A DNA stretch of 64,000 nt from assembly GCF_009389715.1 (NCBI RefSeq), contig NW_024068519.1, positions 1-64,000 of the forward strand, read 5' to 3'. Shown here in pieces: positions 2 to 52,860 of this stretch. The first letter of the stretch is position 1, and each line of letters opens with the position of its first letter. A program made the position numbers and the translations under genes. This stretch comes from Phoenix dactylifera. Its lineage: Eukaryota; Streptophyta; Magnoliopsida; Arecales; Arecaceae. Below the pieces are notes generated by a model. That model did not search any database. It was not told the DNA's origin and saw nothing but the letters and a program-made list of their open reading frames with translations.

Positions 2-2572
2 AGTTATGTCGACCTCTCAAAAGCATCCAACTGGATTCATGTGATCAATATGCTCCCTTCTCTTTCTGTCTTGCGTCTGTCTGGTGCAACTCTTCCTAGC
101 CTTCCCTCTACACTACCCCATGTTAATTTCACTTCTCTTACTACACTTGATCTCTCTGGGAACTACTTTGCATCAAGCATACCCGGTTGGCTGTTTAATC
201 TTAGCAGCCTTGAACTTCTCGATCTTGGGTCCAATAATTTCTATGGCAATATACCACTTGCCATCGGGAATCTCCAGAAGCTTCAAGTCTTAGATCTCTC
301 ATCGAACAACTTCAGTGGAGACATCCCAGAAACAGTATGGAGTCTCAAGAGCTTGCTATCAATAGATTTGAGTATGAACAGTAATGGTGGGTATGGTGGG
401 CGGATACCAGAAACTGTGGGGAATGGTATCGGTGGGCGGATACCAGAAACTGTGGGGAATCTCAAAAGCTTGATGTCTTTGGACCTCAGCTATAACAATA
501 TCAGTGGGCATATACCAGAAACTGTGGGGAATCTCAAAAGCTTGGTGTCTTTGGATCTCAGCAATAACGGTATCAGTGGGCGTATACCAGAAACTGTGTG
601 GAATCTCAAAAGCTTGGAGACCTTGGACCTCAGCTCTAACAACATTAGTGGGCGTATACCAGAAACTGTGGGGAATCTCAAAAGCTTGGAGACCTTGGAC
701 CTCAGCTCTAACAATATCAGTGGTGAAATACCAAAGATCATTGGGAGGCTTACAAAGCTGCAGAATTTATGGTTGCACGACAATCAAATTAGTGGGGAGA
801 TTCCAGAAACCATAGGGAATCTCGGTGAGTTGAGCAGTTTGGATTTATCACGTAATCGTATCAACGGGCAGATACCTAGTGCAGTGGGTAACCTCTGCAA
901 CTTGAGCAACCTTATTGCTTTTGATAACAATATAGGTGGAACTATTGCAGGATTCATGGAAGGTTTCTCGAGATGCAGCACCAACAGATTACGGAAAGTT
1001 AGTTTGCAACAGAACAATCTTAGCGGTCCTTTGCCCAGTCAGATAGGAGAGCTCCAAAGTTTGGGCCATCTTGATCTTGGTTCGAATTCATTGGACGGTT
1101 CAATTCCTGCATCATTGTGGAAATTATCTGCCCTTTATTATCTGAATCTCACAGCAAATTCCTTGGCAGGTGCACTGACTGAAGCCCACTTCGCCAACCT
1201 CACACGCTTATCATTTTCGGGTACTATATCTTATGACGCATTGATCAGTACTCCTGGATTAATAGATCTATCCAACAATTCATTCTCTGGACCTATTCCG
1301 CCAACCTGGGGTGGTGGTTTCGACTATCTTGCCAGTCTGCTTCTTGCACATAACAGGTTCAATGGCAGCATTCCATCAGCATTTTGTGAGGCAAATAGTC
1401 TAAAAGTTCTCAATCTTGCCGATAATGATTTATCAGGAGTTGTCCCTAACTGTTGGAACAATTCATCTCATTTGGGAGTCATTGATTTCTCAGATAACAA
1501 ATTGTCAGGAGGCATTCCTAGCTCAATGGGATCTCTCAGTCAACTCATGTCACTGCATTTGAGAGACAACAACTTCTCTGGTAAAATTCCTTTGTCCTTG
1601 CAACAGTGCAAACAGCTAACTACTATTGACTTTGGCAATAATAAGTTCTCAGGTTGCATACCTGAATGGATTGGAGGGAGCCTCTTATCATTAAGGGTTC
1701 TCCGTCTGCGATCAAATATGTTGGATGGTAATATTTCTAAGCAACTATCACTCCTTGCTTCCCTTCAAGTGTTGGATCTTGCTGACAACAAACTTTCTGG
1801 AACTTTGCCACCATCATTTGGTAATTTTAAAGCCATGATTACCACACAAAATGGGAGCGAACCTATTCTTTCTGAAAATATGGCCTCCTATTATACCGAG
1901 AATATTCAGATAAACACGAAAAGTTTGGAACTCACATTCACTAGTGTGCTCTCACTTGTGACAAGCTTAGACCTCTCAGACAACAATATTTCTGGAGAGA
2001 TTCCTGAGGAGTTTACAAACCTTCGTGGGCTTCATTCCTTGAACTTATCGGGGAATCATTTGACAGGAAGGATTCCGTTCAATATTGGTGCCATGGGGCA
2101 GTTGGAGTCACTTGATCTGTCGATGAACAACCTATCAAGCACAATTCCTACAAGCATCGCAGATTTGAATTTTTTGGCGCGCTTGAACTTGTCCCACAAC
2201 AATCTGTCAGGAAGGATTCCATCTGGCAACCAACTCCAAACCTTGAATGATTCATCCATCTACATTGGCAATCAGTATCTTTGTGGACAACCACTGCCAG
2301 AAAAATGCCCCGGCGATGAACCTGCAGAAGGTCCAATAGAAGAAAAACAAGATGAAAATGGTTCAGAAATGATATGGCTTTATGTTGGCTTAAGTCCGGG
2401 AGTTGTGGTTGGCTTCTGGGGATTTTTTGCCGCAGTGATGCTCAAAAGGAGTACAAGGTATGCTTATATCCAATTCATTGACAGGATATGTGATTGGATT
2501 TATATGGCTGCAACAATAAATTTTACTAGGCCAAAGTCCAAGAGAAACCGAGGACGTAGAGGACGTACGTAA
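2..2572 (+). CDS. LRR receptor-like protein, unit A copy (5' partial)
   Basis: This is a cell-surface receptor-like protein of the EIX2/Cf type: extracellular leucine-rich repeats, one membrane span and no kinase. Such proteins usually sense microbial or developmental ligands and signal through partner kinases. The frame is open from base 2, so the signal peptide and LRR N-cap lie outside the window. About 25 LRRs of the plant type (LxxLxxLxLSxNxxSGxIPxx) follow. The C-cap includes YLCGQPLPEKCPG, then an acidic juxtamembrane stretch, a membrane helix beginning near MIWLYVGLSPG, and a short basic tail ending KRNRGRRGRT. Compared with unit B it lacks about 80 residues around residue 395, an in-frame loss that removes several LRRs and the loop next to them. 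It also has fewer copies of the near-identical 24-residue repeat. Family assignment is firm; ligand and function are unknown. Confidence 0.93.
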   Translation, partial: SYVDLSKASNWIHVINMLPSLSVLRLSGATLPSLPSTLPHVNFTSLTTLDLSGNYFASSIPGWLFNLSSLELLDLGSNNFYGNIPLAIGNLQKLQVLDLSSNNFSGDIPETVWSLKSLLSIDLSMNSNGGYGGRIPETVGNGIGGRIPETVGNLKSLMSLDLSYNNISGHIPETVGNLKSLVSLDLSNNGISGRIPETVWNLKSLETLDLSSNNISGRIPETVGNLKSLETLDLSSNNISGEIPKIIGRLTKLQNLWLHDNQISGEIPETIGNLGELSSLDLSRNRINGQIPSAVGNLCNLSNLIAFDNNIGGTIAGFMEGFSRCSTNRLRKVSLQQNNLSGPLPSQIGELQSLGHLDLGSNSLDGSIPASLWKLSALYYLNLTANSLAGALTEAHFANLTRLSFSGTISYDALISTPGLIDLSNNSFSGPIPPTWGGGFDYLASLLLAHNRFNGSIPSAFCEANSLKVLNLADNDLSGVVPNCWNNSSHLGVIDFSDNKLSGGIPSSMGSLSQLMSLHLRDNNFSGKIPLSLQQCKQLTTIDFGNNKFSGCIPEWIGGSLLSLRVLRLRSNMLDGNISKQLSLLASLQVLDLADNKLSGTLPPSFGNFKAMITTQNGSEPILSENMASYYTENIQINTKSLELTFTSVLSLVTSLDLSDNNISGEIPEEFTNLRGLHSLNLSGNHLTGRIPFNIGAMGQLESLDLSMNNLSSTIPTSIADLNFLARLNLSHNNLSGRIPSGNQLQTLNDSSIYIGNQYLCGQPLPEKCPGDEPAEGPIEEKQDENGSEMIWLYVGLSPGVVVGFWGFFAAVMLKRSTRYAYIQFIDRICDWIYMAATINFTRPKSKRNRGRRGRT
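320..735 (+). repeat. 72-bp tandem LRR-coding repeats (RLP A)
   Basis: Successive 72-bp units encode the 24-residue pattern GRIPETVGNLKSLxxLDLSxNxIS with nearly identical DNA; each carries an AAGCTT within the codons for KSL. Unit A has about five full units plus a 36-bp half unit (GRIPETVGNGIG, near 412-447). The corresponding block in unit B has about eight or nine. The pattern indicates recent unequal exchange or slippage within the gene. Confidence 0.85.
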
Positions 2573-19849: not shown

Positions 19850-20340
19850 TTGCAGTTTGAGCACATATTTGAAAGTTCATATGAAGTTTTTTCAATGAAA
19901 GAAAGTCAGATATACCAAGTTAAGAAAGAATCTACAGGAGAGCTGTCGGTTGGAAGAACAAAGCTCAAGTTAGATTCTGCAATTCTATTTATTTCCAACC
20001 AACATATTTTAATTTTCTTTGAAGTTTTTGAGGTTTTGTTCTGCTAATACTCCTTTTGTTTCTCTAGAATTCCTTTCATCACAAACTAAATATCTTGTTG
20101 ACAATTCAGAGTTACAATCACACACTACAGGAAAAAGGACCTATCCCGACGCTTTTTTGGACCTTTAGCGACGCTTTTTAGCGTCGGCTAAAGTACCCCC
20201 GACGCATACAGAAGCGTCACCAAAGCGTCGACCATACCGGAGTGGAAAAAGTTTTTTCCGACGCTCTTGAGAAGCGTTGTAAAAGGTTGATTTTTAGCGA
20301 CGCTTTTTAGGGACGCTTAAAAGCGTCGCTAAAAACCCCG

Positions 20341-20671
20341 AAGCTTGCCATCGAGGACGCTGCAGAAGACATGGGGAGGCACATCGTAACGGAGGAGCCC
20401 AACGCCGCCGCCGTCTCCAAGCTGCTCGAGATGCCCCTGCGGCAAGTACACCACCACTCTCCCCTTCCTCGGCAAGGATATCAGCGGCCCCGCGCAGGCA
20501 TGCTAGAGCTCCAAGCACACCGGCAACTACTCCGCCCGACGCCGCAGCCGGCGGCGGAGGATGAGGGGGCTGCCGCCGGTGGTGGTGGTGGGTTTGCGGT
20601 GGCTGGAGTGAGGTCGGGTGCTCCGCCGCCTCCTCCTCCTCCTCCTCGATCATGTTTAGATCGATCCCCAT
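20341..20671 (-). pseudogene. Captured ARF3/ETTIN-like N-terminal fragment
   Basis: The reverse strand begins MGIDLN followed by a run of glutamates, the usual start of ETTIN/ARF3-type auxin response factors. One frame over it continues VCLEL[15 protein letters not shown] then [15 protein letters not shown] and YDVPPHVFC. This is the conserved segment just before the B3 DNA-binding domain. ARFs are nuclear transcription factors of auxin signalling. The copy is dead as protein: the invariant Trp codon of ELWHACAG is a TAG at 20503-20505, a frameshift separates the first exon part from this motif, and the B3 domain is missing. It lies wholly inside CACTA element 1, so it was acquired by the transposon. 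Confidence 0.88.
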
Positions 20672-20832
20672 CCTCTCCCTCCCAACACCCCATGCCAAAG
20701 AGTAGCAGAAAGAAGAACGGAGAAGCCCAAAGGTGCAGTAGATAAAGAAAAGGGGAGAACGGGTGGGGTCTCCGGTGTGGGATTAAAAGAAGAACTTCGG
20801 CGGATGGAGCGGCTGGGTGAAAAAGGAGGGAT

Positions 20833-21016
20833 CGGGGGAGCGGCTGGGTGAAGAAGGAGGGATCGGGGGAGTTGGGCCCCTTTTTGGCCTCCGACGTCGC
20901 TTTAAAGCGTCGTCGTCTCTAAGATCGGGGGAGCGGCTGGGTGAAGAAGGAGGGATCGGGGGAGTTGGGCCCCTTTTGGCCTCCGACGACGCTTTAAAGC
21001 GTCGTCGTCTCTAAAT
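20833..21016. repeat. About 90-bp tandem duplication inside CACTA element 1
   Basis: Two copies of a segment running from GGAGCGGCTGGGTGAAG through GACGCTTTAAAGCGTCGTCGTCTCTAA lie side by side, with a third partial start at about 20800. Each ends with the palindromic subterminal motif, so the duplication multiplies candidate transposase-binding sites. Confidence 0.8.
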
Positions 21017-21134
21017 TTCACCCGACACTATCAAAAAGCGTCGTCGAGTTTCGACCCCCGCTCGAAATTCGCCGACGCTTTTTGATAGCGTCGGCGGGGA
21101 AGAGTCGGCAAAACCATATTTTTTTGTAGTGACA

Positions 21135-25969: not shown

Positions 25970-28900
25970 TTATATACCTATATTCTCAAAGAGTTGCGGA
26001 TGTCTTGCTCGCATATCCTCCTCAAGTTCCCATATGGCCTCTCTCTCCGAATGGTTGCTCCACTGAACTTTCACATAGGGGATGATACATCGCCTCAGGA
26101 CCTGCTCCTTATGATCAATGATGCGTAAAGGATACTCTTCATAAATTAGGTCTCTATCAATCTGTAGGAGCTCGTGCTGTACTATATGGCTGGGATCAGG
26201 AATGTATCTCCGTAGAAGAGAAACGTGAAAGACATTATGCATATTGGATAACTCTGGTGGCAAAGCCAGTTTGTGAGCAACCTCCCCTACTCTGACAAGA
26301 ATCTCAAAGGGTCCAATGTAGCGAGGATTCAGTTTACTATGTCTTCCAAATCTTGTAACACCTTTCGAGGGTGAAACTTTTAAGAATACAAAGTCCCCCT
26401 CCTGAAATTTCACTTCTCTTCTTTTCTTATCTGCCCAGCTTTTCTGTCTATCTTGAGCTACCTTGAGCCTTTTCCTGATCAGTAGAATCTTCTCCCTAGC
26501 ACTCTGAACTAATTCAGGGCCCAACAACTTCTTCTCTCCAACATCATCCCAATGTAGAGGAGACCGACATTTTCTTCCATACAAGGCTTCATAAGGTGCC
26601 ATCTGAATGCTAGAATGATAACTATTATTGTAAGCAAACTCCACTAGTGATATATGATCATCCCAGCAACCTTCCAGATCAACAATACTAGTCCGCAGCA
26701 TATCCTCCAGGGTCTGGATCGTCCTCTCTGACTGACCATCAGTCTGAGGGTGATAAGCAGTGCTGAGTCTCAGATCAGTGCCCATAGCAGTCTGGAAGCT
26801 TCTCCAAAATCCAGATACAAAGCGGGGGTCCTGATCAGATACAATGCTTACTGGTACCCCATGTAAGCGCACAATATCATCAATATACCTCTGAGCCAGC
26901 CTATCAAGTGAAGTGCCAAACCAAAAGGGTAAAAAGTGAGCTGACTTCGTGAGGCGATCAACAATCACCCACACTGCATCATTCCTCCTTATTGTCATCG
27001 GAAGCCCAGTAACAAAATCCATAGTAATGTGCTCCCATTTCCACTCTGGAATCTCTAGTGGTTCTAGCAAACCAGCCGGCCTCTGATGCTCAGCCTTTAC
27101 CTGCTGACATACCAAGCACCGAGCTACAAATCCTGCTATCTCTCTCTTCATGCCGTGCCACCAGAAATGTTCCCGTAAATCTCTATACATTTTAGAGCTG
27201 TCGGGATGAATAGAGAAACGAGACTGATGAGCTTCCTCCAGAATCTCTCTTTTTAGATCAGCATTCTTGGGCACACATAATCTACTGCCCAAACGCAGAG
27301 TACTATCCGGATGGATTCGGAGTTCGGGTTGTAACCCTCTCTCCACATCATTTCTAAGCTGACACAAATATGCATCTGTCTATTGAGCAGCCTTTATTCT
27401 TTCTATCAAGGTAGGTTGCACCAACAAACTAGTCAACATACTCCCAGCACCCTTGGTAATCACCTCGATCTGCATCATATCAAAATCTTTCAAAATCTGC
27501 TTCTGAGTGGTAAGCAAAGATATGGAGCCCACTGCTGACTTCCTACTGAGAGCATCTGCCACAACATTAGCCTTTCCCGGATGATATTTGATGCTTAGAT
27601 CATAATCTTTTAGTAGCTCAAGCCATCTTCTTTGCCCTATGTTTAATTCCTTCTGAGTAAATATATACTTTAGGTTTTTGTGATCAGTAAAAAACCTCAC
27701 AAGGCTCACCATATAGATAATGTCGCCAAATCTTCAGAGCAAAGACCACTGCTGCCAACTCCAAATCATGTGTCGAATAGTTCTGCTCATATGGCTTCAG
27801 CTGTCTAGAGGTATAGGCTACTACTTTATCATTCTGTATTAGTACACAGCCTAATCCTTTCTTGGAGGCATCACTATAGATGATGAAACCTCCAGTACTG
27901 GTTGGCAAAGTAAGAATAGGAGCATATACCAGCCTTTGCTTTAGCTCTTGAAAACTTTGCTCACAATCTTCACTCCATACAAACTTTGCTCGTTTCTGGG
28001 TCAAACAAGTCAAAGGAGTAGCGATCCGAGAGAATCCTTCCACAAATCTTCTATAATAACCAGCCAAACCCAAGAAGCTTCTGATTTCAGTGACATTAGT
28101 AGGACGAGGCCAATCCACCACTGCTTCTATTTTCTTTGGGTCCACTGATACCCCTTCTTTAGAGATTACATGACCAAGAAATGCAATACTATCCAGCTAG
28201 AAATCACATTTGCTCAGTTTGGCATATAATCTATTCTCCTGAAGAATCTGTAATACCACTCTCAAGTAATCTTCATGTTCTTTGCTCTTAGAATAGATCA
28301 GTATATCATCAATGAAAATAATAACAAACTGATCCAAATACTACTTAAAGACCCTGTTTATCAGATCCATAAAAGCAGCTGGCGCATTGGTTAGTCCAAA
28401 TGGCATAACTAAAAATTCATAGTGCCCATACCTGGTTCGAAATGCAGTCTTCGGCACATCATCTGCTAGGATTTTCAATTGAGGATACCCAGATCGCAGA
28501 TCTATCTTGGAGAAGACTTGGGCACCTTGTAGCTGATCAAATAAATCATCAATCTGGGGCAGAGGGTATTTGTTCTTCACTGTAACCTTGTTCAACTCCC
28601 GGTAATCAATACACAGCCGCATACTTCCATCCTTCTTCTTGACAAATAGTACAGGAGCTCCCCATGGTGAAACACTCGGGCGGATGAATTTCTTCTCTAG
28701 AAGTTTCTGTAGCTGAACCTTCAACTCTCTCAGCTCTGCCGGGGCCATCCGATAAGGAGCCTTCGAGATAGGCCCAACACCCGGTAAGAGATCGATCGGA
28801 AAATCAATCTCCCGATCAAGAGGTAATCCAGGTAGATCATCAGGGAATACTTCTAGATACTCTCTCACAACAGGGATATCCTCTAGTCTTGTTTCTTTTG

Positions 28901-48378: not shown

Positions 48379-48729
48379 TACTCGACTGTCAAGGAGACAG
48401 ATCTTGACATGAGTAATGTCGACCTCTCAAAAGCATCCAACTGGATTCATCTGATCAATATGATCCCTTCTCTTTCTGTCTTGCGTCTGTCTGATGCTGC
48501 TCTTCCTAGCCTTCCCTCTACACTACCCCATGTTAATTTCACTTCTCTTACTACACTTGATCTCTCTGGGAACAACTTTGCATCAAGCATTCCTGGTTGG
48601 CTGTTTAATCTTAGCAGCCTTGAACTTCTCGATCTTGGGAACAATAATTTCTATGGCAATATACCACTTGCCATCGGGAATCTCAAGAAGCTTCAAGTCT
48701 TAGATCTCTCAGGGAACAACTTTAGTGGA

Positions 48730-49305
48730 GACATCCCAGAAACGGTATGGAGTCTCAAGAGCTTGCGGTCAATATATTTCGTTCACAACAGTATCAGTGG
48801 GCGGATACCAGAAACTGTAAGAAATCTAAAAAGCTTGGTGTCCTTAAACCTCAGCTCTAACTGCATCAGTGGGCGTATACCAGAAACTATGGGGAAACTC
48901 AAAAGCTTGAAGTACTTGGACCTCGGCACAAACAATATCAGTGGGCATATACCAGAAACTATGGAAAATCTCAAAAGCTTGGTGTCTTTGGACCTCAGCG
49001 ATAACAGTATCAGTGGGCGTATACCAGAAACTGTGGGGAATCTCAAAAGCTTGGTGTCCTTGGACCTCAGCGATAATAGAATCAGTGGGCGGATACCAGA
49101 AACTATTGGAAATCTCAAAAGCTTGGTGTCCTTGGCCCTCAGCAGAAACAATATCAGTGGGCGTATATCAGAAACTGTGGGGAATCTCAAAAGCTTGGTG
49201 TCTTTGGACCTCAGCTATAACAGAATCAGTGGGCAGATACCAGAAACTGTTGGAAATCTCAAAAGCTTGGTGTCCTTGGCCCTCAGCAGAAACAATATTA
49301 GTGGT
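48730..49305 (+). repeat. 72-bp tandem LRR-coding repeats (RLP B)
   Basis: About eight to nine near-identical 24-residue units (GRIPETVGNLKSLVSLDLS...), against five and a half in unit A. Adjacent pairs share alternating variants (LALSRNNIS and LDLSxNRIS), suggesting that a two-unit block was itself duplicated. Confidence 0.85.
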
Positions 49306-51169
49306 GAAATACCAAAGACCATTGGGCGGCTTACAAAGCTGCAGAATTTATGGTTGGATCGCAATCAAATTAGTGGGGAGATTCCGGAAACCATAGGGAA
49401 TCTTGGTGAGTTGATCAGTTTGGATTTATCCCGAAATTTTATCAACGAGCAGATACCTAGAACAGTGGGTAACCTCCGCAACTTGAGCGACTTTGATGCT
49501 TCTGAAAACAATCTTAGTGGTCCTTTGCCCAGTCAGATAGGAGAACTCCAAAGTTTGAAAAGTCTTGATCTTGGTTTTAATTCGTTGCACGGTTCAATTC
49601 CTGCATCATTGGGGAAGTTATCTGCCCTATTTAATCTGATTCTCACAGCAAATTCCTTGGTAGGTGCACTGACTGAAGCCCACTTTGCCAACCTCACAAG
49701 CTTATCATATTTGGATCTGTCTTATAACTCATTGACAGTAAATGTGAGTCAAGATTGGCTTCCTCCATTTAAACTAGACGACATCATCATGACGTCTTGT
49801 CCACTGGGGCCCAAATTCCCTCCATGGCTTCGAAACCAGACTAATTTGTTTGTACTGGACCTATCTGGTGCAGGAATATCAGAAAATTTTCCTGATTGGT
49901 TTTGGGACATGCGTCCATCCATGGTCGTTCTTAATGTTTCTCATAATAATATGAAAGGAAAGCTACCTAGCTTTGAACCTCTACCCCCCATTCTGAGTCC
50001 CGATCAAGGAATATTAATAGATTTATCCAACAATTTATCCTCTGGACCTATCCCCCCAAGCTCGGGTAGTGATGTCAACCCTATCGGCTTTTTGCTTCTT
50101 GCACATAACAGGTTCAATGGCAGCATTCCATCAGCATTTTGTGAGGCAAATTATCTAAAAGTTCTCAATCTTGCCGATAATGATTTATCAGGAGTTCTCC
50201 CTAACTGCTGGAACAATTCATCTCTTTTGATAGTCATTGATTTCTCAGACAACAAATTGTCAGGAGGCATTCCTAGCTCAATGGGATCTCTCAGTCAACT
50301 TATGTCACTGCATTTGAGAGACAACAACTTCTCTGGTAAAATTCCTTTGTCCTTGCAACAGTGCAAACAGCTGACTACTATTGACCTTGGCAATAATAAG
50401 TTGTCAGGTAGCATACCTGAATGGATTGGAGAGAGCCTCTTATTATTAAGGGTTCTCCGTCTGCGATCAAATATGTTGGATGGTAATATTCCTAAGCAAC
50501 TGTCACTCCTTGCTTCTCTTCAAGTGTTGGATCTTGCTGACAACAAGCTTTCTGGAACTTTGCCACCATCATTTGGTAATTTCACAGCCATGATTATGAA
50601 ACCAAATGGGAGCGAACCTGTTCTTTCAGAAGATTTGGCCTCCTATTACATTGAGAATATCCAGATAACCATGAAAGATTTGCAACTCACATTCACTAGT
50701 GTGCTCTCACTTGTGACAAGCTTAGACCTCTCAGACAACAATATTTTTGGAGAGATTCCTGAGGAGTTTACAAACCTTCATGGGCTTAGTTCCTTGAACT
50801 TATCAGGGAATCATTTGACAGGAAGGATTCCGAGAAATATTGGTGCCATGGGGCAGTTGGAGTCACTTGATCTATCGATGAACAACCTAACTACAACAAA
50901 AACAAGATTTGGCGACGCTTTTTAAGGCCTTTACCGACGCTTATAAGCGTCGGTCTGTTTCCTTTTGACGCTTTTAAAAGCGTCGCCAAAGGGTCGGCTA
51001 TGTCAGAGTGGAAAAAAGAATTACCGACGCTTCTAGAAAGCGTTGCTAAGGTTGATTTTAGCGACGTTTTTTAGCGACGCTTTTAAGCGTCGCTATAAAT
51101 CCCGTTAGCGACGCTTTAAAGCGTCGTTATAAATATTTTTTTAAAAAAAAATTTAAAAATTATTTTGAA

Positions 51170-51886
51170 TCAGGGCCTCGCCTTCCGGTTCCTAGGATTT
51201 TTCCCCAGCACCTTCCTCTCCGCCTCCTTCATCGCATCCCTCACCTTCCGGTTCCTAGGATCCCACAGATATCCCATGCTCGCGCTCAGATCCAGCGGCT
51301 CCATCTGCACCACGTCGACCCCCTCGACGCCGGCGATCACCTCGATCTCCGCCACCCCCGCCGCCGTCTCCACCTGGCACATCACCAGCAGCTCCTCGTC
51401 AACCCGCGCCAGGTAGCCGTCGTCGATGCCGTAGGCAGAGGCGCGCACCACTGTGTGGGTGGACCCACGGACGCCGTGCGGCGGGAAACGGCAGAATGAG
51501 ACGGCAAGCTCGGCGGCGCCGGGGGACTCGATCATGGGGAACATGAGGCCCTGGGGGCCGAGATCGAGGGCCTTCTTGGCGCAGGCGGCGGAGAGCTCCG
51601 GAAGGCGGAGGATGGCCGGGGTGCGGGCGGCGGCGAGGGCGCGGAGGCAGGGGAGGGCCTCGGCGATGCCGCCAGAGCCGTGCTCCATGTCGACGACCAC
51701 GTAGTCGTAGCCGGCGAGGGTCGGGGAGGAGCGCAGGAGGAAGAGGCCGTAGAGGGTCTCGTCGGCGACGAGGCGGGACTTGAGGATCCGCGGTTCGGGG
51801 GAGAGGGGGGCGGAGTCGGGATCCAAGGAGGCGGCGAAGAGGCGGGCGAAGACATCATCGCCAGAGCCGTTCTGCTTCTTGAATCT
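51170..51886 (-). pseudogene. Captured HpcH/HpaI aldolase-like gene fragment
   Basis: Within a 275-codon ORF (ATG at 51997), residues 38-260 match plant HpcH/HpaI-type aldolases, class II enzymes that cleave or join 2-keto acids. Hallmarks: DMEHG (residues 103-107), LPE, PMIES, PPHGVRGS, QVE (Glu 210, a metal ligand in the family) and DLSAS (Asp 236, the second ligand). Signs of decay: the conserved Gly before PLDLS is Glu at residue 233, about seven residues are missing between SPTLA and GYDYVVVD, and the C-terminus is cut and replaced by a short repeat (PRNRK twice). ORF residues 1-37 are out-of-frame EBS-like and junction sequence. Long ORF survival suggests recent capture; activity is doubtful. 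Confidence 0.85.
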
Positions 51887-51928
51887 GGAGGGGGTTAGGG
51901 AGGGGGGGCGATGATGATGAGAAGGTAC

Positions 51929-52052
51929 CTTTGACGACCTTGTTGGTGCCTTTAATGGTGTAGGAATCGAGATCCTTCTTGCCATCGCCGGAGCCATCGC
52001 CTACCTTCCTCTCTGTACCTCTATCTCTATGAATGGGTTTGGTCTTGGCCAT
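51929..52052 (-). pseudogene. Captured first exon of an EBS-like BAH-domain gene
   Basis: The reverse strand starts MAKTKP and after an insertion continues KKDLDSYTIKGTNKVVK. That is the start of plant EBS (EARLY BOLTING IN SHORT DAYS)-type BAH-PHD chromatin proteins, which read histone marks to delay flowering. Directly after the codon for the final Lys comes G then GTACCT (GT at 51928-51927), a good splice donor at the place where a first exon would end. The rest of the BAH and PHD domains is absent. It abuts the aldolase-like fragment, so the transposon has joined two unrelated genes head to tail. Confidence 0.75.
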
Positions 52053-52860
52053 CGCCTCCATCCCCTACCTTCTTACCGATGTTTCTGGAGAGAGAGAGAG
52101 AAGACGAGGAATGGGCGAGAGAGATGTGGGCGAGAGAGATGCTTGCACGTTTTCTCTTCGATCTCTGGAATGGGTTGAGGGAGGAGGGATGAGAGTGAGG
52201 AGGGCGGTGGTCAAGAGAAGGCTCGTTGGGATTTAGCCTGATGCTGATAATCACCAGCTCGTTGGCTTCCGACGACGCTTTTTAGCGTCGTCTTAGGCCG
52301 GGGACTACACCGACACCTTTTACAAGCGTCGGCAACTTTTGACGCTAGACCAAAAATTGCCGACGCTTGTAATAAGCGTCGGCAAAAAGGCGTCGGTAAA
52401 ACCGACTTTTCCTGTAGTGCTATCAAGCACAATTCCTACAAGCATCGCAGATTTGAATTTTTTGGAGCGCCTGAACTTGTCCCACAACAATCTATCAGGA
52501 AGGATTCCATCTGGGAACCAACTCCAAACCTTGAATGATCCATCCATCTACATTGGCAATCAGTATCTTTGTGGACAACCACTGCTAGAAAAATGCCCCG
52601 GCGATGAACCTGCAGAAGGTCCAATAGAAGAAAAACAGGATGAAAATGGTTCAGAAATGATATGGCTTTATGTTGGCTTAAGTCCGGGATTTGTGGTTGG
52701 CTTTTGGGGATTTCTTGGCGCAGTGACGCTCAAAAAGAGCACAAGGTATGCTTATATCCGATTCATTGACAGGATATGTGATTGGATTTATATGACTGTA
52801 ACAATAAATTCTGCTAGGCCAAAGTCCAAGAAAAACCGAGGACGCAAAGGAGGCAGGTAA

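Follow-up and report, generated by a model that had tools for sequence, protein, structure and literature searches.

A date palm Pack-CACTA element carrying fragments of an aldolase gene and an EBS gene

A 64,000-nucleotide stretch of the Phoenix dactylifera genome (contig NW_024068519.1, positions 1 to 64,000; the window) contains at 50890-52419 a transposon that is very probably one copy of a modular date palm Pack-CACTA family, with captured pieces of an aldolase gene and of an EBS gene. Copies of the family carry up to nt 196-1058 of an intronless aldolase coding sequence (best match on contig C17), with a 5' border in common. At least 8 copies form a lineage in which an EBS gene (best match on contig C7) has contributed its 5'UTR, exon 1 and the beginning of intron 1 to this core, and one such EBS-aldolase copy was inserted in an LRR receptor-like gene, breaking its frame. 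Judged from the sequence, the carried pieces look like unselected passengers, not like a working new gene.

Termini, insertion site and class of the element

The element, its flanks and the interrupted gene are composed as follows.

50890..52419, minus strand: non-autonomous Pack-CACTA element, 1530 bp, with the cargo reading on the minus strand
50887..50889: target-site duplication CTA, left
52420..52422: target-site duplication CTA, right
50890..50902, plus strand: terminal inverted repeat, left, without its first C
52407..52419, minus strand: terminal inverted repeat, right, CACTACAGGAAAA
50908..51127: subterminal GACGCTT..AAGCGTC repeats, left
52268..52385: subterminal repeats, right
48379..50925, plus strand: frame of the LRR receptor-like gene (Pfam LRR models), interrupted by the element, with its stop inside the element
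52423..52860, plus strand: remainder of the same LRR gene, with the last repeats and a membrane helix (by eye)
1834..2434, plus strand: segment of a paralogous LRR gene, in which the target site (about 2132-2134) is empty

The initial annotation had placed a CACTA element at 50890-52419, and these coordinates are exact. The termini read ACTACAACAAAAAC at 50890 and TTTTCCTGTAGTG up to 52419; the right inverted repeat starts with CACTA, and the first C, retained in the sister copy L009, is missing from the left end, ACTACAACAAAA. Both ends adjoin the 3-bp duplication CTA, and the insertion sits in the coding sequence of the LRR gene, of which the window holds a pair (1834-2434 versus 50589-52722, 94% identical over 601 bp), the second one being broken by the element. 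Since the paralogue in the same window is free of an insertion at the matching place, the element is a real insertion. Palindromes of the form GACGCTT..AAGCGTC with up to 2 mismatches occur nine times in the window, against 0.16 expected, with four in this element, four in a second CACTA element and one elsewhere.

The element carries host fragments without a transposase: its long open frames are the aldolase frame or overlap it, as judged with a Pfam search of two of its frames, and best-matching donors were found for the cargo. Further copies with the same ends and cargo are present in the genome, the closest being L009 (92% identity over query positions 1-1498 of 1530 bp, with its own duplication AAT), and L010 and L027 share the order of EBS piece, intervening segment and aldolase piece. 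Identical 3-bp duplications adjoining recognisable ends were seen in 20 of 36 fetched copies and not found in the other 16, with more than one candidate end in some of the fetched copies (L011, L025, L039, L042).

The second CACTA element, at 20123-21131 of the window, is flanked by the duplication ACA, bears subterminal repeats of the same kind, and contains on its minus strand a fragment of an auxin response factor (PDB ARF1 4ldv, E 5.6e-9). A third candidate at 28893 was rejected, as no partner end with a matching duplication accompanies it.

Captured fragments and their best-matching donors

The cargo, all on the minus strand, is arranged as follows, in the order in which it reads, with the open frame that overlaps several of the pieces given last.

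52075..52166, minus strand: EBS 5'UTR segment
52035..52052, minus strand: start of EBS exon 1 (nt 1-18), including the EBS ATG at 52052
51998..52033, minus strand: EBS 5'UTR, duplicated piece (module nt 119-154)
51929..51983, minus strand: EBS exon 1, nt 19-73
51907..51928, minus strand: remnant of EBS intron 1 (about 20 nt), with the GT donor at 51928-51927 and an approximate inner border
51829..51918, minus strand: segment X as searched, PPSLTPSRFKKQNGSGDDVFARLFAA, its first 7 nt overlapping the aldolase piece and its last 12 the intron remnant
51202..51835, minus strand: piece of the aldolase gene (donor CDS nt 196-847), lacking 18 nt in frame near 51716
51176..51198, minus strand: 23-nt filler adjoining the aldolase piece at its 3' border and copying 51239-51261 (96%)
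51170..51997, minus strand: unspliced open frame P0001 of 275 aa, which begins within the EBS exon, in a frame other than that of EBS, and extends across X into the aldolase piece

An EBS-like exon 1 followed by a GT donor and an HpcH/HpaI-type aldolase frame, both on the minus strand, had been read from the DNA in the initial annotation, and both are borne out by the searches. On the EBS side, the minus-strand sequence KKDLDSYTIKGTNKVVK has a PDB match to EBS (5z8n, E 0.0011), the EBS proteins of oil palm and coconut contain MAKTKPGKKDLDSYTIKGTNKVVK, and 51929-52052 is similar to BAH-PHD genes of the palm's own genome. In the EBS genes on C7, C22 and C11 the exon 1 match comprises residues 1-24 and has the same end as the exon in the element, and a native GT donor follows exon 1 in all three genes compared. 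Across leader, exon 1 and intron start, the EBS module shares 81% identity with the C7 gene (best 40 of 54 candidates). Among the same best 40 of 54 candidates, nine places match into exon 1, namely the C7 gene and eight element copies: the window, L009 (C164), L010 (C401), L027 and L045 (both C8), L047 (C120), L061 (C82) and L036 (C14, shortened). Exon 1 of L010 differs from that of C7 at 4 of 73 nt (counted by eye).

On the aldolase side, the frame at 51170-52000 matches Pfam PF03328 (HpcH_HpaI) with 1e-34, the domain being incomplete (profile positions 18-175 of 221, plus a 6-residue deletion), and its best homologues are palm proteins. The best-matching gene, L017 on C17, is intronless with an intact 368-aa frame, and a single match spans residues 3-370 of an oil palm protein at 88%. 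The piece in the window is 94% identical to nt 196-847 of this coding sequence. As the best-matching aldolase gene is itself intronless, the piece is compatible with capture either from a gene or from a retrocopy.

The best-matching donors lie on different contigs, which argues that two unlinked genes were captured, as had been proposed; the two segments were not found adjacent in a host locus. With 81% identity of the EBS module to C7 against 94% of the aldolase piece to C17, the true EBS donor could be another paralogue. No capture scar in the form of the CACTA end motifs CACTACA or TGTAGTG was found in the EBS locus on C7 (3 kb) or in the 4.5 kb read at the aldolase locus L017 on C17.

Unseen in the initial annotation were the truncation of the aldolase at both ends and its 18-nt deletion, the partial duplication and rearrangement of the EBS leader and exon 1, and, between the EBS and aldolase pieces, a third segment, X, of some 70-80 nt. 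The window and L009 both have a duplication of the first 18 nt of exon 1, and L009 also has a longer version of the 23-nt filler; in the window, a further change creates the odd reading MAKTKP-IHRDRGTERKVGDGSGDG-KKDL and a new ATG in the aldolase frame. Segment X was scored at 40 places of its own genome (best 40 of 88 candidates), each match reaching up to the aldolase end of the query, and the 18 places that overlap read loci are all copies of this Pack-CACTA family. A source gene for X was not found, either among these best 40 of 88 candidates or by protein search, which yielded four proteins at E up to 10, all containing family sequence. As intron pieces and templated filler are kept, capture would have taken place at the DNA level, via aberrant repair or re-mobilisation of nearby elements.

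A modular family across the genome

A search of the genome with the element gave 147 matching pieces (best 40 of 1396 candidates). The distinct aldolase-bearing copies that were read number 42: 37 copies, being the window and 36 of the 39 loci L009-L047 (leaving out the aldolase gene L017, its paralogue L033 and L038, a relic without element ends), and in addition L061, L065, L067, L068 and L071. Among the 37, the aldolase piece starts at donor nt 195-196 in 22 and at nt 419-489 in 15, and in the longest copies it reaches nt 1058. The common 5' border points to one capture followed by deletions; the present copies would then have arisen from that capture by amplification, with mobilisation presumably by a transposase supplied in trans.

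The aldolase core is accompanied by varying modules. Among the 42 copies, EBS exon 1 was counted in 8, an Alfin fragment in 10, A20 in 5, ZF-HD in 3, plastid uL15 in 6 and cyclophilin in 1. Pfam matches, from one copy each, support Alfin (2.5e-38), A20 (5e-11), ZF-HD (4e-10) and cyclophilin (3.8e-8), the last piece containing an apparent intron; uL15, which lies behind the aldolase piece, gave no match in Pfam and was found by PDB search alone (2.8e-14). Most forks in the trees of the copies have weak support (stars on 3 of 20 and on 3 of 26 inner branches), so that the order of events is partly guesswork.

The EBS leader is more widespread than exon 1, which suggests, as an unlikely alternative, that the leader, perhaps with promoter activity, is retained as a module while the coding modules behind it are exchanged. 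It is present in 31 of the 42 copies, standing before EBS exon 1 in 8 and before the Alfin fragment in 9 of the 10 copies that bear one, and among the best 40 of 54 genomic candidates 31 further places, 12 of which were read, match the leader without exon 1. However, common descent suffices for this pattern without any function, 11 copies have no leader, the A20 piece stands upstream of it in L039 and L040 (where A20, EBS leader, Alfin and aldolase occur together), and the ZF-HD piece is antisense in L045, L047 and L061. An extended form, in which the family is a transposable exon-shuffling cassette whose leader, with a putative promoter, tends to be kept, whose modules (EBS exon 1, Alfin-like, A20, ZF-HD, uL15, cyclophilin) are exchanged via repeated recombination, whose chimeric transcripts recur, and of which a few copies (for example those underlying P0002, P0003 and P0241) become genes, we consider distinctly improbable.

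A modular Pack-CACTA family with passenger fragments is of a kind known from other plants, and this one, built around one aldolase core, is richer than usual. Pack-MULEs and gene-bearing Helitrons likewise shuffle and fuse gene fragments. These belong to superfamilies other than CACTA, with different ends and target duplications. The Pack-CACTA or Pack-TYPE elements of Arabidopsis, rice and maize (PMC8903248) likewise have short non-autonomous CACTA ends with host coding fragments, form small multi-copy families and combine fragments of several loci per element, whereas the date palm family, in a palm host, joins one aldolase core with six other recognisable gene fragments across its subfamilies. 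Tgm-Express1 of soybean (PMC1947982), likewise a CACTA element within a host gene, has also captured fragments of several genes and kept intron parts; it lies in an intron and its chimeric cDNAs were obtained by RT-PCR, whereas the date palm element lies in coding sequence. Among the papers listed by the literature searches, none is by its title about a Pack-CACTA of palms, though the term occurs in a date palm genome paper (PMC12295771). With best-matching donors, intermediate forms and an empty site all in a single genome, the present case resolves step-wise gene shuffling by CACTA elements, and the family offers a means to date and order successive captures.

Beyond the uL15 fragment, a candidate terminus of another kind, CACTGGAAAAAAA, was noted in L010, L027 and L036, so that not only cargo but also ends may have been swapped within the family.

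Coding potential, selection and annotated proteins

A chimeric transcript starting in the EBS exon and spliced from 51928 into the aldolase segment, which the initial annotation had thought possible and which would make the element a new gene, is highly unlikely. The element did capture the native EBS exon 1 donor with the start of intron 1, two RefSeq-named Phoenix proteins, P0003 and P0241, combine sequence of related element copies with other sequence, and Tgm-Express1 yields spliced chimeric cDNAs (PMC1947982). However, the donor is not kept across the sister copies: among the four with complete EBS exon, X and aldolase, it reads GT in the window, L010 and L027 and AT in L009, the closest sister; it is GT in L036 with its shortened exon, and lost in L045 and L061. 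The reading frames of EBS and aldolase also differ. All 29 AGs located 20-689 nt downstream of the donor at 51928 were surveyed as acceptors, and a single one is in frame, giving an exon from 51451 that leaves out about 60% of the aldolase piece; with the best nearby acceptor, the intron would be 44 nt long and the frame wrong. The mutated donor in L009, the single in-frame AG and the presence of an unspliced 275-aa frame together make a spliced chimera unlikely, and the cargo shows no selection.

Translation of the unspliced 275-aa frame itself, as a fusion with an aldolase-like body, is very improbable. It is open from the ATG at 51997 to 51170 and includes the HpcH_HpaI match (1e-34), and L036 has a 194-aa frame of its own from the EBS ATG. 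Against this, the frame lacks the C-terminal part of the aldolase and six residues (LAEIAG or similar) that are kept in 10 of 10 other aligned proteins, its start codon was made by a local rearrangement absent from L009, L010 and L027, and the copy-specific changes are neutral.

The latter was determined over 37 copies, in which 191 copy-specific substitutions relative to the family consensus comprise 67 synonymous, 122 non-synonymous and 2 stops; a neutral simulation with the same mutation classes gave 66.7, 120.7 and 3.6, respectively. Pooled in this manner, the copies behave as neutral, without purifying selection on the coding part, the test including fragmentary and frameshifted copies and having little power for any single copy. 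When each copy is compared with the donor over its main match, pairwise dN/dS ranges from 0.17 to 0.88 (window 0.28, L011 0.19); as these values below 1, which point in the opposite direction, mix in the constrained branch of the donor, the copy-specific test was used. CpG or CHG transitions account for 98 of the 191 substitutions, as expected of methylated DNA, and the copies would thus be decaying as methylated passenger DNA. A function of a fused product is not indicated by these data.

Capture from a host gene or retrocopy in which EBS exon and aldolase already formed one unit is almost certainly wrong: the order of exon, X and aldolase is identical in the window, L009, L010 and L027, yet seven copies (L011-L013, L019-L021, L023) have X and aldolase without any EBS piece, in others that have the EBS leader, Alfin or A20 takes the place of exon 1 or nothing does, and the retained EBS intron sequence argues against a cDNA step for the EBS piece.

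Copies of the family appear to have entered protein annotation. The locus L011 (C11:13100000-13104500) contains a 333-aa frame that agrees with P0002 in length, contig and the first 60 residues, and a frame of L013 (C8:2458500-2463000) agrees with P0003 over 60 residues and is located on the contig of P0003. P0241, which ends in an ENT domain, is 98% identical to L071 (C8, near 13223836) over residues 16-277. By these matches, copies of this transposon family appear to encode all or part of the RefSeq-named Phoenix proteins P0002 and P0003, and probably of P0241 as well, a warning that some RefSeq-named date palm proteins are partly or wholly transposon-encoded.

Behind the aldolase piece, L035 (1094-1297) and L071 (432-653) contain exons of a further gene, AYVQWEIELLGFEMPK and VLLTEEISGSLRKLK, with an apparent intron between them; these exons belong to the model of the ENT-domain protein P0241.
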